Source of the DNA: Defluviitaleaceae bacterium
Lineage (GTDB): Bacteria; Bacillota; Clostridia; Lachnospirales; WQUN01
Reading direction: 5' to 3'
NCBI GenBank assembly: GCA_009780585.1
Contig: WQZS01000001.1
Coordinates: 248,001 to 312,000, forward strand
DNA length: 64,000 nucleotides
In this document: in pieces, positions 14,386 through 61,915 of the stretch
Numbering within the stretch: position 1 is the first letter of the stretch
Layout: every line of letters starts with the position of its first letter
The notes under the pieces: generated by a model
Seen by the model: only the letters and a program-made list of their open reading frames with translations
Told to the model about the DNA's origin: nothing
Databases searched by the model: none
Translations under genes and position numbers: made by a program

Positions 14386-15252
14386 TCACCCAATCACAAT
14401 CTCCGTACCCAACGTCAAAGTAAGCGTAGGCGAAGTATGCCCGCAGGGAAGATTAACAACCGTCGGTACATTCAAAGGCAGCAAAATATCATTTACGGAT
14501 TGTGCTAATGTTTCCACCGTCTGCGGGGAAAAGTCCCCGAGGACGATACCCGCCGCCGCCGCGAGCTTGCCCGCGTATTTAAGCTGTAGAAGCATACGGT
14601 CGATTTTATAAGGTTCTTCGTTGGTTTCCTCCAAGAAAAGGATGCGCCTTCGGGTATCGATTTCGTAAGGTGTGCCGAGGGAGGAAGCGACGAGGGAAAG
14701 GTTACCCCCGGTGAGTATACCCGCCGCACGCCCGGGGACGAAAACAGTGTAAGGGTACGCCGTTGGTAGAATTTCGCGTGTTTTTCCCGCGAACAACGTT
14801 TCCCGAAAGGAGCGCAGCGTTTCCGGATGGATGTCCCCTCCCCCGAAGTCCGACGCGGGCATGGGTGCGTGAAAGGTCACCAGTTTACATAATTGATTGA
14901 ATACAATGTGCAACGCCGTCACATCGCTGTAACCCGCGAATACTTTGGGGTTATTTTTAATGAGCGCGTAATCGATGTACGGCAAAAGCCGTTGCGCGCC
15001 ATATCCCCCGCGCGCACAAATAACCCCGCGGATTTCGGGCGATGAAAAGGATTCGTGCAGATCACGCAAACGGAGCGCGTCCGGCCCGGCGAGGAATCCT
15101 TCGCGGGCGCGGCAGCTATCGGTTACACGGCAACGCAAACCCATGGATTCCAGTACCCTTACGCCCGAAGCGAGGCGGTTTGGGTCACAAGGGCCGGATA
15201 AGGCGACGACGGCGACGGTATCGCCGGGTTGTAACAAAGGAGGGAAGGTCAT
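14386..15252 (-). CDS. ldcA: LD-carboxypeptidase (peptidase S66)
   Basis: A 288-residue S66 serine peptidase, related to LdcA, which trims the terminal D-Ala from muropeptide tetrapeptides, and to MccF. The GGYGAQRLL turn and the nucleophile motif GYSD (Ser near residue 104) are present, together with LEETNEEP (glutamate of the triad) and the C-terminal histidine in PCGHTSP. Length is normal. Cytoplasmic, no signal peptide. Either cell-wall recycling or immunity to a peptide-nucleotide antibiotic is possible; LdcA is the likelier reading. Confidence 0.9.
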   Translation of the reverse strand: MTFPPLLQPGDTVAVVALSGPCDPNRLASGVRVLESMGLRCRVTDSCRAREGFLAGPDALRLRDLHESFSSPEIRGVICARGGYGAQRLLPYIDYALIKNNPKVFAGYSDVTALHIVFNQLCKLVTFHAPMPASDFGGGDIHPETLRSFRETLFAGKTREILPTAYPYTVFVPGRAAGILTGGNLSLVASSLGTPYEIDTRRRILFLEETNEEPYKIDRMLLQLKYAGKLAAAAGIVLGDFSPQTVETLAQSVNDILLPLNVPTVVNLPCGHTSPTLTLTLGTEIVIG

Positions 15253-15299: not shown

Positions 15300-17693
15300 T
15301 TATGTAATTCTTCTCCGCAGCCAAACCGCGCCCAACTCGATTAGGTACATCGCGGCGAATATCACGACGATGGTCGTCGTCAGATTCGGGAAGTTGACCT
15401 GCCGTACCGCGCGGCTGATGAGCATCCCCACCCCGCCCGCACCCACGATGCCCAGCGACACCGAATCGGCGATGTTGGATTCCAACCGGATGGCCACCCA
15501 CGCCACAAAAGCGGTGAACACCCCGGGCAGCACACCCTTACATATTATTTGCATCCGCCCCGCCCCCGTCGCCCGCATGGCGTTTATTGCGTCGGTTCCC
15601 TGTTCCTCGATTGTGCCGATGAAGGCCCGCGTCAGGTATCCCACCGTGGGGAAAAGCAACCCCACAACGGCGGCGGTCGGGCCGAAGCCCAAGCTCTTCA
15701 CCACCATTAGGATTAACACGAGGGACGGTATTGCCCGAATCAAGCTAACCATCCCTTTTATGCCGTAACCAAGCGGTTTAAACGGCGTTATGTTTTCCGC
15801 CGCGAGGAACGCCAGCACCAGCGCGACAACACAACCCACCGCCAACGCGCAAACGCCGATAGCCGCCGACACCATAAGCTGGCGCAATATCTCAGGCAAT
15901 GCGGAAGGGTTAAACGCCCAAAAACGCGAAAACACATGCCCCGCGTTTTGCAAGCGCGATATAAATTGCGGGAGGTTCAAATCCAAGCGGTGCGCCGACG
16001 CGAAGAACACAACGATCGCGGTTACCGGCATTAACCATTTGGAAAGTATATTTCCTTTATAGCGACCTTGTTTCGCCAAGCGTTTGCGCAACAGGTTCGT
16101 AACGATTTCCGTCGCCAGTACCATCGCCATAAGGATCAACACCAACGCCATCGCCCGCCGGAATCCGCGTAAATCGAGGTTCGTGTTGATCAAAAACCCC
16201 AATCCGCCCGCGCCCACCATACCCAATACCGCCGATGCCCGCACGTTGATCTCGAACGAAAACAACGTCCAGTTGATCCACGCGGGGATAAACGCGGGTA
16301 CCAACCCATGGAATAAAACCTGCCAATAACCCGCCCCCGTGGAGCGCAACGCCTCCAACCGCGTACCCGCGATTTCATCCATCGATTCCGTATATGAGCG
16401 TGCCAAAAAGCCAAGCGTCGCTAACACCAATGCCATTACGCCCACCATCGGGCCGATGCCGAAGATAAACATCATCACCGTCGCCCATATCAAAAGCGGC
16501 ACGTTACGTAAAAACGATACGACCAAGCGCACCGCCGCCCGTACGGGCAGCAACGGATTCATTTCCTTGGACATTAATATCCCCAGCAAAAAAGCAAGCA
16601 ACGCCGATATGTACGTACCGACCACCGCAAACAACAGCGTATCCAATACCCGCGCCCACACAAGCGAAAAATTGCCGCCCACGTATTCCACGTTGGGCGG
16701 CAGGAAATTGGCGGTAAAAAACCTTGCGAAGTTGGGGAACCCCGCGAATACGTCAAGGACGTTGACGTTGATGTAGCGGAAGGAGAAGAAGACTAATAAA
16801 AAAGCGGCGATATACGGCAAAAATCTTGCAACATTACCCCAAGCTCCGCGGGTTTCTAAAAATGCTTGATCAACGTTTCTATTTTGCTTCACGCACCGCG
16901 CGGGGGCATTTTTATTGCTTTCGGTCGTTTTATGATTGTCGCCATAAATATATCCGATGATTTCATCCGTCAGTTCCTCGGGCGGGCCGTCGAAAACGAC
17001 CCTGCCTTCCTTTAAGCCGACGATACGCGCCGCGTATTCCCGCGCGAACGAAACCTGATGCAAGTTTACGATGCAGGTAAGATTCCGTTCCTTGACCATT
17101 TGGCGGAGGCAATCCATGACCGCTGCGGCGGAAGCGGGATCGAGTGAAGCGATCGGTTCGTCCGCGAGCAATAATTTGGGCCGCTGCATCAATGCGCGGC
17201 AAATACCCACGCGCTGCATTTGCCCGCCGGAAAGCGTTTCCGCCCGTTGTTGCGCTTGTTCGGTGAGGCCGACGGTTTCCAGCAGGGTTAGGGCTTCTTT
17301 TTTGTCCGCGTGATCGTATGCGCCGAAAAGGCTTTTGTACAGCGGTGTTCCGCCCAAGCTGCCGTGCAGTACGTTTGTACAAACGGGCGTACGCGCAATC
17401 AAGTTGTGGTGCTGGAAAACCATGCCAATCTTCGTACGCGCCGCCCTTAGGGCAGGCTTGCACAAGCCCGTGATTAATTCACCATCGAATGTAATATTAC
17501 CTTCCGTCGGCTCCGTTAAGCGGTTGACGCACCGTACCAGCGTGGACTTTCCCGCGCCCGAGGGCCCGATAACCGCCACGAATTCACCCGCATTAACATC
17601 AAGGTCAACGCCATCAAGCGCATATGCTTTATGGTCGTAGGTCTTGCGTAAGCCGCGGACGCTCAACAAAGGGCTATTGTTCGGAAAGATCAA
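15300..17693 (-). CDS. fused PhnC-PhnE-PhnE type ABC transporter (ATPase plus two permeases)
   Basis: A single 797-residue polypeptide. Residues 1-255 are a complete ABC ATPase (Walker A GPSGAGKST, signature LSGGQMQR, Walker B LLLADEP) of the PhnC type. Two PhnE-type permease domains follow, each with about six membrane segments and an EAA loop: LRSTGAGYWQVLFHGLVP and MRATGAGRMQIICKGVLP, each ending in VGAGG. These parts are normally separate proteins. The start is TTG 17693 with GGAGG nine bases upstream, inside the end of the binding-protein gene (20-base overlap). Because a TPP riboswitch controls the operon, the cargo is more likely a thiamine-related phosphate than a phosphonate. Confidence 0.9.
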   Translation of the reverse strand: MIFPNNSPLLSVRGLRKTYDHKAYALDGVDLDVNAGEFVAVIGPSGAGKSTLVRCVNRLTEPTEGNITFDGELITGLCKPALRAARTKIGMVFQHHNLIARTPVCTNVLHGSLGGTPLYKSLFGAYDHADKKEALTLLETVGLTEQAQQRAETLSGGQMQRVGICRALMQRPKLLLADEPIASLDPASAAAVMDCLRQMVKERNLTCIVNLHQVSFAREYAARIVGLKEGRVVFDGPPEELTDEIIGYIYGDNHKTTESNKNAPARCVKQNRNVDQAFLETRGAWGNVARFLPYIAAFLLVFFSFRYINVNVLDVFAGFPNFARFFTANFLPPNVEYVGGNFSLVWARVLDTLLFAVVGTYISALLAFLLGILMSKEMNPLLPVRAAVRLVVSFLRNVPLLIWATVMMFIFGIGPMVGVMALVLATLGFLARSYTESMDEIAGTRLEALRSTGAGYWQVLFHGLVPAFIPAWINWTLFSFEINVRASAVLGMVGAGGLGFLINTNLDLRGFRRAMALVLILMAMVLATEIVTNLLRKRLAKQGRYKGNILSKWLMPVTAIVVFFASAHRLDLNLPQFISRLQNAGHVFSRFWAFNPSALPEILRQLMVSAAIGVCALAVGCVVALVLAFLAAENITPFKPLGYGIKGMVSLIRAIPSLVLILMVVKSLGFGPTAAVVGLLFPTVGYLTRAFIGTIEEQGTDAINAMRATGAGRMQIICKGVLPGVFTAFVAWVAIRLESNIADSVSLGIVGAGGVGMLISRAVRQVNFPNLTTTIVVIFAAMYLIELGAVWLRRRIT

Positions 17694-18567
17694 TCTCCAA
17701 TACCTCCGCCATCATACGAAGATGCTGTATTTGTTCGTCATTGGGTAAAACGAAGCGCGTGTCGGGCGTACCGAAGCGTGTGCCGAAGTATTCCTCGTTA
17801 TCGTACGCCAGCAGGAACCCGCGCACCTTTTCCACCAGGTCACGCGGTAAATGCCCCGCCGCGATATACCCCGGGAACGGGATGATCGACGTTGATCCGA
17901 TGATCCGCACATCTTCCTCGTTAATCACGCCCGAAGCGATCATGTTGCCGAGGTTTAAATTCCCCACCGCCGCCGCGTCGAAATCGCCGTGCGTCACGCC
18001 CATGATGCTGGCTGTTTGGCTGCCCGAATGTGCCACCGTGCCGAAGAACCCCCCGGCCTCCACTTCCATACGCGTCAGGTTAAATACGTTCATCAAATGA
18101 TACAGGGGATAAAAAAAGCCCGAGGTCGAGGAAGGGCTGATAAACGCGAAGCTCCGCCCGCGCAAGTCCTCAAGGGTATGAATATCATCGTGCGAGGTGA
18201 TAAAGACCGTCTTATTGATCGACGCGGGGTTGTCCGTCACGACCAACCGCTCAACGTCCATCACTTCCCGCGCCAATAAGTACACGAAGGGCGAACCCCA
18301 CATGATGTCCAAATTGCCCGCACGCATGGCTTCGATGCCGACAAGGTGCGTAGCGTCCTCGATGATGCGTACCGGCATCCCGACATGCGCTTCCAGCCTT
18401 TCACGGAAGTCCCCAAACACCGCCACCGACTGCGGGTTGCCGTCGTCGATCAGAAGCGCGATGCGCAGTTCGGTCATTTCGTCCGAATCCCCGCCGCGCC
18501 CGCACGCCGTAAACACGACCGCGCATACCGCCAATACCGCGCACAACAACAGAATTACCTTTTTCAT
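17674..18567 (-). CDS. PhnD-like substrate-binding lipoprotein
   Basis: A 297-residue lipoprotein of the phosphate/phosphonate binding-protein family (PF12974). The start at 18567 is chosen because AAGGAG lies seven bases upstream; the in-frame ATG at 18573 is too close to it. Residues 1-22 are a signal peptide ending FTAC (lipobox). Binding-pocket elements of the family are GNLDIMWGSPFVYLLA and ISPSSTSGFFYPL, the latter a phosphate-contact Ser/Thr loop. It should feed the fused transporter encoded just downstream. TPP-riboswitch control suggests a thiamine-related ligand; that is inference. Confidence 0.9.
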   Translation of the reverse strand: MKKVILLLCAVLAVCAVVFTACGRGGDSDEMTELRIALLIDDGNPQSVAVFGDFRERLEAHVGMPVRIIEDATHLVGIEAMRAGNLDIMWGSPFVYLLAREVMDVERLVVTDNPASINKTVFITSHDDIHTLEDLRGRSFAFISPSSTSGFFYPLYHLMNVFNLTRMEVEAGGFFGTVAHSGSQTASIMGVTHGDFDAAAVGNLNLGNMIASGVINEEDVRIIGSTSIIPFPGYIAAGHLPRDLVEKVRGFLLAYDNEEYFGTRFGTPDTRFVLPNDEQIQHLRMMAEVLEIDLSEQ

Positions 18568-18596
18568 TTCCATTCTCCTTTTTGCGGGAGGGCTTC

Positions 18597-18626
18597 GAAA
18601 AATAAATAACCGCCCGTTGGGGCGGC
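18597..18626 (-). terminator. riboswitch-controlled intrinsic terminator
   Basis: On the minus strand CCGCCC and GGGCGG pair around CAAC and run into TTATTTATTTTT. It lies between the TPP aptamer and the binding-protein gene, so the switch probably acts by premature termination when TPP is bound. Confidence 0.85.
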
Positions 18627-18642
18627 ATAATTAAACCTCAGC

Positions 18643-18748
18643 CATTGCTCCCTACGCTAGAATTAACTAACAGGTTCTAAGGGTCAGGTTTTAACCTTCT
18701 CAGCCCGCGCGAACCCCGAAGGACGCATACGCAAGCTCCCCTGCAATT
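18643..18748 (-). promoter_or_regulatory. TPP (thiamine pyrophosphate) riboswitch
   Basis: Read on the minus strand, the conserved THI-box blocks occur in order: GGGGAGC, GGCTGAGA, GACCCTTAGAACCTG, TTAAT and GCGTAGGGA. The closing stem P1 is ATTGC (18743-18747) with GCAAT (18644-18648). Spacing fits the family. The next gene downstream is the PhnD-like binding protein, so the transporter operon is placed in the thiamine regulon. Confidence 0.95.
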
Positions 18749-18828
18749 GTCATGGAATTGTAACACGCGGCGGTTAGCGCGTCAAATGCGGCTTATCTAA
18801 CAATACGGTTCATCTAATCGCGGTTCAC

Positions 18829-60184: not shown

Positions 60185-60272
60185 CGGAGATGAGAGGATT
60201 TGAACCTCCGCGCCGCGTTAACGGCCTACTCCCTTAGCAGGGGAGCCTCTTGAGCCACTTGAGTACATCTCC
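60185..60272 (-). tRNA. tRNA-Ser (anticodon GCT)
   Basis: Eighty-eight bases with acceptor GGAGATG/CATCTCC and discriminator G. The anticodon stem CTCCC/GGGAG encloses CTGCTAA, giving anticodon GCT. The long variable arm of serine tRNAs is present, and the T-loop reads GGTTCAAATCC. CCA is not encoded. It lies just beyond the AT-rich mobile segment. Confidence 0.95.
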
Positions 60273-60287
60273 AATTATATTATTAGT

Positions 60288-60646
60288 GAGCAAGCCTGTA
60301 AGCCGAGTTCTGTTTCCGCGGGTTGCGGATGACAGCCATCTATCTAGGGCGTTCGTTGCCGATACGCCTCCTGCGACGCTACCAAAGCATTCGAACGGGC
60401 CGTTCGCGCAGGGGGCTGCGCTGCTTTATTTGGTCTTGCACCGGGTGGGGTTTACATAGCCAACGCCGTCGCCGGCGTTGCGGTGCGCTCTTACCGCACC
60501 TTTCCATCCTTACCAAGTGGGTCTTGGCGGTTTATTTCTGTTGCACTTTCCCTGGAGTCGCCTCCGCCGGGCGTTACCCGGCACCCTTGCCCTGCGGTGC
60601 TCGGACTTTCCTCACATCTTACGACGCGCGGCTGTCCGGCTTACTC
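60288..60646 (-). ncRNA. rnpB: RNase P RNA
   Basis: The catalytic RNA that matures tRNA 5' ends. The conserved GAGGAAAGTCCGAGC, ACAGAAATA and final ACAGAACTCGGCTTACA blocks are present on the minus strand. The terminal stem P1 is GAGTAAGCC (60638-60646) with GGCTTGCTC (60288-60296). The layout fits class A, as in Clostridia, not the class B of Bacilli. Its 5' end shares GAGTAA with the last codons of rpsA. Confidence 0.95.
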
Positions 60647-61915
60647 AATATCTTCTTCGGCGGATGCTTCCGCGGTTGCTTCTTCTACGATCGGTTCTTC
60701 TTCAATGGTCGGTTCCGCTTCAATGGTTGCGTCTTCTTCAACGGCCGGCTCTTCTTCGGCGGTTATTTCCTCTTCAACAGACGGTTCCGCTTCGGTGGGG
60801 TCTTCGTCGTATTCCTCTTGAACTTCGGCCAACTGCTCGTCCGCTTGCTTTTTCGACAGGCTGATCTTTTGGTTTTGCACATCTACGGCGGTGATCAGCA
60901 CGTTTACCTTTTGCCCTACGGTCAGTTCATCGTCGGGCTTGGTGATATGGCGCGCGGCGATTTGGGAAATATGGACGAGGCCGTCGATGCCTTCCTCCAG
61001 CTTGATGAACGCGCCGAACGGTGTAAGGCGTACGACCGTACCTTCCACGATGGCGTCAACGGGATAGCGGTCTGCGATGCCGTTCCACGGATTGGCGTCC
61101 GCGTCCTTCATCGAAAGGGATATCTTCCCTTTTTCCGGGTCCACGGCGATGACGTTTACCGTAACGGAATCGCCCACCTTCAAGATGTCGGCGGCCCGAC
61201 GTACACGCTTCCAGGAAAGTTCGGAAACATGGACAAGCCCGTCAACCCCGCCTAAATCAATAAACGCGCCGAAGTCCACCAGGCGGCTGACCGTACCCTG
61301 TACCTTCGTGCCGACCTCAATCGAGCCGAAGACCGCCTCGCGTTTTTCCTTGGCTTCTCGTATCGCCAGCTCCTTACGGCCGGCTACGATACGGCGCTTG
61401 CGGCGGTCGAGCTCCAATATTTGAAAATTGAATTCGCGTCCCTTAAATTGGTTTAAATCCTCCACAAAGCGCTCCGCTATCTGCGACGAAGGCACAAACG
61501 CCTTGCAGCCTTGGATATTGGCGATTAAGCCGCCACGGATAATGTCGGTCACCTTGCCCAGCAGAGGCGTCTTATCTTCCAAAGCCTGTTCCAATACCTT
61601 GTAGTTGACTTGGTTGTCCAGCTTCTTCTTGGATACCAATACGTTACCGTCGCCGTCGTTCACGCGGATGATGAATACGTCGAACTCGTCGCCGGGCTTA
61701 ACCAAATCCTTTAGGTTGGCTTGGTTGTCGTCGGTAAACTCGCTGCGGGTGACGATGCCGTCCGATTTATAACCCAAGTCCACGATGACTTCGGTATTGG
61801 TCACGCGAAGAACCGTCCCTTTCACGATATTGCCATTATGTATCGTGGCAAAGGATTCGGCGAGCAATTCTTCAAACGTTGTTTCCTCGACCTTGGGTGT
61901 GTTTAAAGCGTCCAT
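60641..61915 (-). CDS. rpsA: S1 RNA-binding domain protein (30S ribosomal protein S1 type)
   Basis: A 424-residue protein with four S1 domains (KGTVLRVTNTEVIVDLGYKSDG; LGKVTDIIRGGLIANIQG; QGTVSRLVDFGAFIDLGGVDGLVHVSELSW in part; EGTVVRLTPFGAFIKLEEGIDGLVHISQ in part). Domains 3 and 4 are the best conserved. The last 60 residues are very acidic (EEE, PTIEEEP repeats). It helps mRNA binding or RNA handling at the ribosome. Its stop codon overlaps rnpB. It follows plsC as in many Clostridia. Confidence 0.92.
   Translation of the reverse strand: MDALNTPKVEETTFEELLAESFATIHNGNIVKGTVLRVTNTEVIVDLGYKSDGIVTRSEFTDDNQANLKDLVKPGDEFDVFIIRVNDGDGNVLVSKKKLDNQVNYKVLEQALEDKTPLLGKVTDIIRGGLIANIQGCKAFVPSSQIAERFVEDLNQFKGREFNFQILELDRRKRRIVAGRKELAIREAKEKREAVFGSIEVGTKVQGTVSRLVDFGAFIDLGGVDGLVHVSELSWKRVRRAADILKVGDSVTVNVIAVDPEKGKISLSMKDADANPWNGIADRYPVDAIVEGTVVRLTPFGAFIKLEEGIDGLVHISQIAARHITKPDDELTVGQKVNVLITAVDVQNQKISLSKKQADEQLAEVQEEYDEDPTEAEPSVEEEITAEEEPAVEEDATIEAEPTIEEEPIVEEATAEASAEEDIE

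Follow-up and report, generated by a model that had tools for sequence, protein, structure and literature searches.

The window, a 64,000-nucleotide stretch of DNA from a Defluviitaleaceae bacterium, carries on its reverse strand an operon that probably encodes an ABC importer that takes up a thiamine compound intact, with TPP or TMP the likeliest ligands and thiamine a possible further one. Read in the direction of transcription, the locus comprises a sigma-70-type promoter (TTGACG-17-TACAAT, 18757-18785), a TPP riboswitch aptamer (RF00059, 18632-18752), an intrinsic terminator hairpin as the expression platform (GCCGCCC-CAAC-GGGCGGT followed by TTATTTATTTTT, 18609-18626), the gene for a 299-residue PhnD-type substrate-binding lipoprotein (17674-18573), and a gene for a 797-residue chain in which an ATPase and two permeases are fused (15300-17693). 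The last of these frames begins with a TTG codon and overlaps the lipoprotein gene by 20 nt. An LD-carboxypeptidase (Peptidase_S66) gene lies 47 bp downstream of the operon on the same strand (14386-15252) and is possibly part of the same transcript; a functional link is not evident. A similar gene is found nearby in three related genomes (G001, G003, and G004), its adjacency to the operon not being constant.

The aptamer scores 65.0 bits against its covariance model in the 64-kb window (gathering score 54.3, E 1.7e-10) and is full length, covering model positions 1-105 of 105. At the homologous loci L023, L026, and L027 the TPP aptamer scores 65.5, 55.7, and 68.0 bits, respectively. The preliminary description had reported a TPP riboswitch with its own terminator in this leader; both are present, but the interval given for the locus ends 4 nt short of the aptamer's end at 18752. 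Promoter and terminator scans did not by themselves give results above chance; both features recur in homologous leaders, and all five genomes of the genus have a leader with a 17-bp spaced promoter and a hairpin followed by a T run. In G001, G003, and G004 the sequence of the terminator stem differs while the hairpin is kept, which is the pattern expected of a selected terminator. A clear antiterminator was not found when the leader was folded alone (z -1.05). Judged from this arrangement of sequence elements, the operon is presumably TPP-repressed through an OFF-type switch: in a TPP-replete cell, TPP would bind the leader RNA, the terminator would form, and the operon would be turned off. 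Elsewhere in the window, a class A RNase P RNA is encoded on the reverse strand (60185-60647), with a tRNA gene directly after it on the same strand.

The window genome (G000) and four relatives (G001 to G004) belong to one genus of the Defluviitaleaceae. All are MAGs, 94-100% complete, which we take, judging by their isolate labels, to be termite-gut genomes. Riboswitch, lipoprotein gene, and fusion occur in the same order in four of the five (G000, G001, G003, and G004), and the lipoproteins of the latter three are 76-80% identical to that of the window. G002 has a near-identical leader with a TPP riboswitch that ends 49 bp before the end of its contig, which has probably truncated the operon. 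The fused frames of G001, G003, and G004 are 780, 953, and 813 aa long, the start of the 953-aa frame probably having been called too far upstream, and the fusion linkers vary in length and sequence between genomes. An assembly error as the source of the fusion can be ruled out, since the gene order, riboswitch, and fusion recur in three more genomes with different linkers. In a search for further PhnCDE-like loci under TPP riboswitches, as suggested in the preliminary description, none of the 20 related loci scanned outside the genus, with short flanks, has a TPP riboswitch (nine loci were left out of the scan). Of the 391 class genomes, 40 contain PhnD-like relatives, and the nearest one from beyond the genus shares 31% identity. 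PhnD-type domains also lie in frames of 626-641 aa in other class genomes (L063:1489-3366 on the reverse strand, L065, L066, L067, L070, L072, and L074). In L063, the only one of these frames to be scanned, the domain is C-terminal to an MCP signalling domain, and by its sequence the frame resembles a chemoreceptor whose sensor domain is of the phosphonate type.

That the ATPase and both permeases form a single 797-residue chain is confirmed by profile matches above the respective cut-offs. The PhnC model TIGR02315 matches residues 9-251 with 323.9 bits (cut-off 266), and the PhnE model TIGR01097 matches two stretches with 398 bits (cut-off 217); BPD_transp_1 likewise matches two stretches. 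The chain consists of PhnC (approximately residues 9-251), a disordered linker (254-285), and two PhnE domains (approximately 290-539 and 560-797). On reading the sequence, the ATPase motifs GPSGAGKST, LSGGQ, and LLLADEP are intact, as are both permease coupling loops. The AlphaFold2 model (pLDDT 88.1) has a confident ATPase domain, two helical permease domains, and a linker with values below 50, and the top Foldseek matches all fall to the ATPase domain. ABC importers have two ATPase and two permease domains (PMC8276074), so that a chain with both permeases but a single ATPase is odd. Candidates for the second ATPase are the free PhnC, about 58% identical, from a paralogous system in the same genomes (system B, see below), another copy of the chain, or a processed product. 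Inspection of the linker by eye revealed no evident slippery site or internal start as a route to free PhnC. No other ATPase-permease-permease fusion was found in the 391 class genomes, no other frame among the PhnE matches listed being longer than 555 aa. In the proposed mechanism, the lipoprotein would capture the ligand outside the membrane and pass it to the channel of the two PhnE domains. Transport, presumably inward, would be powered by ATP hydrolysis at the fused PhnC and at a second ATPase supplied by another chain or by the free paralogue.

The partner of this chain is, as had been proposed, a PhnD-like lipoprotein. It carries a lipobox (...TAC) and matches Phosphonate-bd (PF12974, 144.7 bits) and the broad subfamily model TIGR01098 (131.2 bits, cut-off 112.05), whereas its 117.2 bits against the PhnD equivalog TIGR03431 fall below the cut-off of 261.1. 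The best fold matches of its AlphaFold2 model (pLDDT 88.9) are PtxB, GpxB, ArrX, and PhnD (Z 27-29), as expected of a type II fold. PtxB (Z 29.0 over 260 residues, rmsd 2.4) is also the nearest solved relative by sequence. GpxB, too, belongs with the nearest relatives of solved structure (E 5.8e-15; Z 28.5). An ordinary importer of phosphonate, phosphite, or phosphate, with an incidental TPP riboswitch, would accord with this kinship to PtxB, with PhnC and PhnE matches above cut-off, and with the gene reading like a phosphonatase that adjoins the distant relatives L006 and L007. We consider it very unlikely, given the equivalog score, the conservation of the riboswitch in the genus, and the replacement of canonical pocket residues described below; among the neighbouring genes, moreover, none reads as a C-P lyase or phosphonatase.

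Ligand contacts are known for PhnD1 (Y44, S124-T125-S126, H156, D203, and the capping Y204; PMC10284923) and for GpxB (Tyr138, Ser168-Asn169-Ser170, and His199, with Arg223 and Thr247 at the tail; PMC12718374), which binds glycerol phosphates through an STS-type loop (PMC12718374) and so provides a precedent in the family for phosphate-ester ligands. In an alignment, the window lipoprotein and its three counterparts (group A) all keep the STS phosphate-binding motif as S149-T150-S151. All four have His76 at the position of PhnD1 Y44, Gln186 in place of the canonical His, and Phe233 in place of Asp/Asn; of the canonical PhnCDE set (Tyr, S-T-S, His, Asp/Asn), only STS is retained. In the window lipoprotein the position of the capping tyrosine is taken by Pro234 and that of the hinge tyrosine by Asn120, the latter change being common to the paralogue of system B. 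Without the capping tyrosine, large ligands would not be kept out of the predicted pocket. Loss of the cap and the aromatic Phe by the tail site fit a large ring-bearing ligand, and the retained STS loop fits a phosphate group on it. The changes in the predicted pocket are consistent with TPP or TMP, proving neither. A phosphorylated ligand is not certain, because His76 and Gln186, at positions that contact the phosphate head in relatives, and the hinge Asn120 are changed.

System B is present in all five members of the genus (L022:6912-10786 on contig 8 of G000; homologous loci L024, L028, L029, and L030) and comprises a TetR-type regulator gene, a PhnD-type lipoprotein, a separate PhnC, and a fused PhnE-PhnE. 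The PhnE-PhnE fusion is common to both systems, and their PhnD proteins are 40% and their PhnC domains 54-59% identical. Unlike the window operon, system B has no riboswitch but a TetR-type regulator, its ATPase is separate, and in the alignment its lipoproteins still have the canonical Tyr, His, and Asp/Asn. Group A and the system B lipoproteins are sisters in a phylogenetic tree, each well supported (100/99). Since Tyr, His, and Asp/Asn are changed in group A and kept in its sister, the two groups likely bind different ligands.

Profile searches found no ThiC, ThiE, or ThiM in any of the five genus genomes, and thiamine pyrophosphokinase (TPK) was found in G000, the one genome searched for it. 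On this evidence, members of the genus seem to be thiamine auxotrophs that could make no use of HMP or thiazole. Import of HMP phosphate, thiazole phosphate, or a similar thiamine precursor would account for both the TPP riboswitch and the phosphate-type binding loop. With ThiE, ThiM, and ThiC missing from five genomes that are 94-100% complete, however, the cell would have no way to assemble thiamine from such precursors, which makes this the least probable of the readings and an extremely unlikely one. The HMP-phosphate or other precursor ligand that the preliminary description had entertained is thereby contradicted, while its proposal of an importer for a thiamine-related compound is well supported by the conserved riboswitch, the absence of the biosynthesis genes searched and of ThiT throughout the genus, and the TPK of G000.

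ThiT (PF09515, Thia_YuaJ), the usual transporter, gave no match in the five genus genomes, yet each of the family's eight other genera has it, with a TPP riboswitch immediately before the gene in the loci read; the PhnD-type locus fits the role of a ThiT replacement. G003 has neither ThiT nor YkoE, and its sole TPP riboswitch precedes the PhnD-type operon. That the operon is the only TPP-controlled candidate for thiamine entry in this genome is the strongest functional argument for import of a thiamine compound. In three genus genomes, YkoFEDC stands behind a second TPP riboswitch. That of G000 (L008:7000-10871, contig 7) precedes YkoF, YkoE, a double ATPase, and a CbiQ-like gene. G004, a genome without ThiE, has two copies of a locus (L054 and L056) in which a TPP riboswitch precedes genes for a Thiamine_BP protein, a permease, and a binding protein resembling NMT1, probably a ThiXYZ-like system for thiamine itself. 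Because three members have YkoFEDC and a fourth a ThiXYZ-like system, these may already serve to bring in free thiamine. Among the candidate ligands, TMP would be less convenient than TPP or thiamine, because no ThiL was found over the cut-off in any of 21 relatives. The weak ThiL matches in the genus (61-74 bits) are probably other members of the superfamily, one of which, in G001, seems to read like SelD.

Mycoplasma hyorhinis Cypl (p37) binds ThDP and MG289 binds thiamine, both being likewise lipoproteins of ABC importers (PMC6609329); in principle, then, ABC import of thiamine compounds by way of a lipoprotein has precedents. An importer of free thiamine only, whose PhnD fold would no longer need a phosphate, as reported for MG289, has the further attractions that TPK, present in G000, makes TPP from thiamine in one step and that two phosphate-contacting residues are changed in the lipoprotein. 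The STS loop is nevertheless wholly kept in all four copies and YkoFEDC already exists in three genus members, and we regard free thiamine as the sole ligand as rather unlikely, preferring a system that takes up TPP or TMP and possibly also thiamine. Cypl and MG289 were not among the matches listed from our sequence and fold searches, and kinship may still exist. PF06646, which we take to be the Cypl family and to differ from that of the window lipoprotein, gave no match to the latter at E 10, a result in which HMMER filters could hide kinship. The Cypl and MG289 systems are encoded in operons of three genes, among them those for a PhnC-like ATPase and a single large permease. Their ATPase is separate, whereas that of the window locus is fused, and we know of no TPP riboswitch for either system.

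Other known importers share some of these features. GpxB, of the PhnT family, has the same fold and family as the window lipoprotein, a phosphate ester ligand, an S-x-S loop, and no capping tyrosine. It differs in keeping His (H199) where the window lipoprotein has Gln186 and in its tail contacts, and vitamin regulation has not been reported for it. PhnCDE and PtxABC have PhnC, PhnE, and PhnD-type parts in common with the window locus, which is set apart by its one-chain fusion, its TPP riboswitch, and three changed canonical pocket residues. ThiBPQ is an importer of thiamine compounds, as are ThiT-ECF, YkoFEDC, and ThiXYZ, three systems that relatives carry under TPP riboswitches; the binding components of all four are unrelated and none belongs to the PhnD family. 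An orphan TPP-regulated ABC operon has been described in C. difficile (PMC11477304). Among open-licence papers, we found none that connects TPP riboswitches to transporters of the PhnD type. As far as we have found, control of a PhnD-type importer by a TPP riboswitch is new, as is the fusion of all three parts, and an earlier mention is possible.

More tentatively, a single gut lineage may, on one occasion, have co-opted a PhnD-family system for uptake of intact TPP as the main or sole source of B1, the system replacing ThiT and operating as a single-chain importer with a borrowed or second ATPase; we hold this scenario to be possible rather than probable. How an ABC importer assembles from a chain with one ATPase and two permeases is a puzzle open to experiment. 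If the proposed function is correct, the operon would represent a B1 uptake route that is found outside the mycoplasmas and uses the scaffold of a phosphonate transporter, and would offer a clean test of how a PhnD pocket that held small phosphonates came to accept a large coenzyme. It would also caution against labelling all PhnD, PhnC, and PhnE genes as phosphonate importers.
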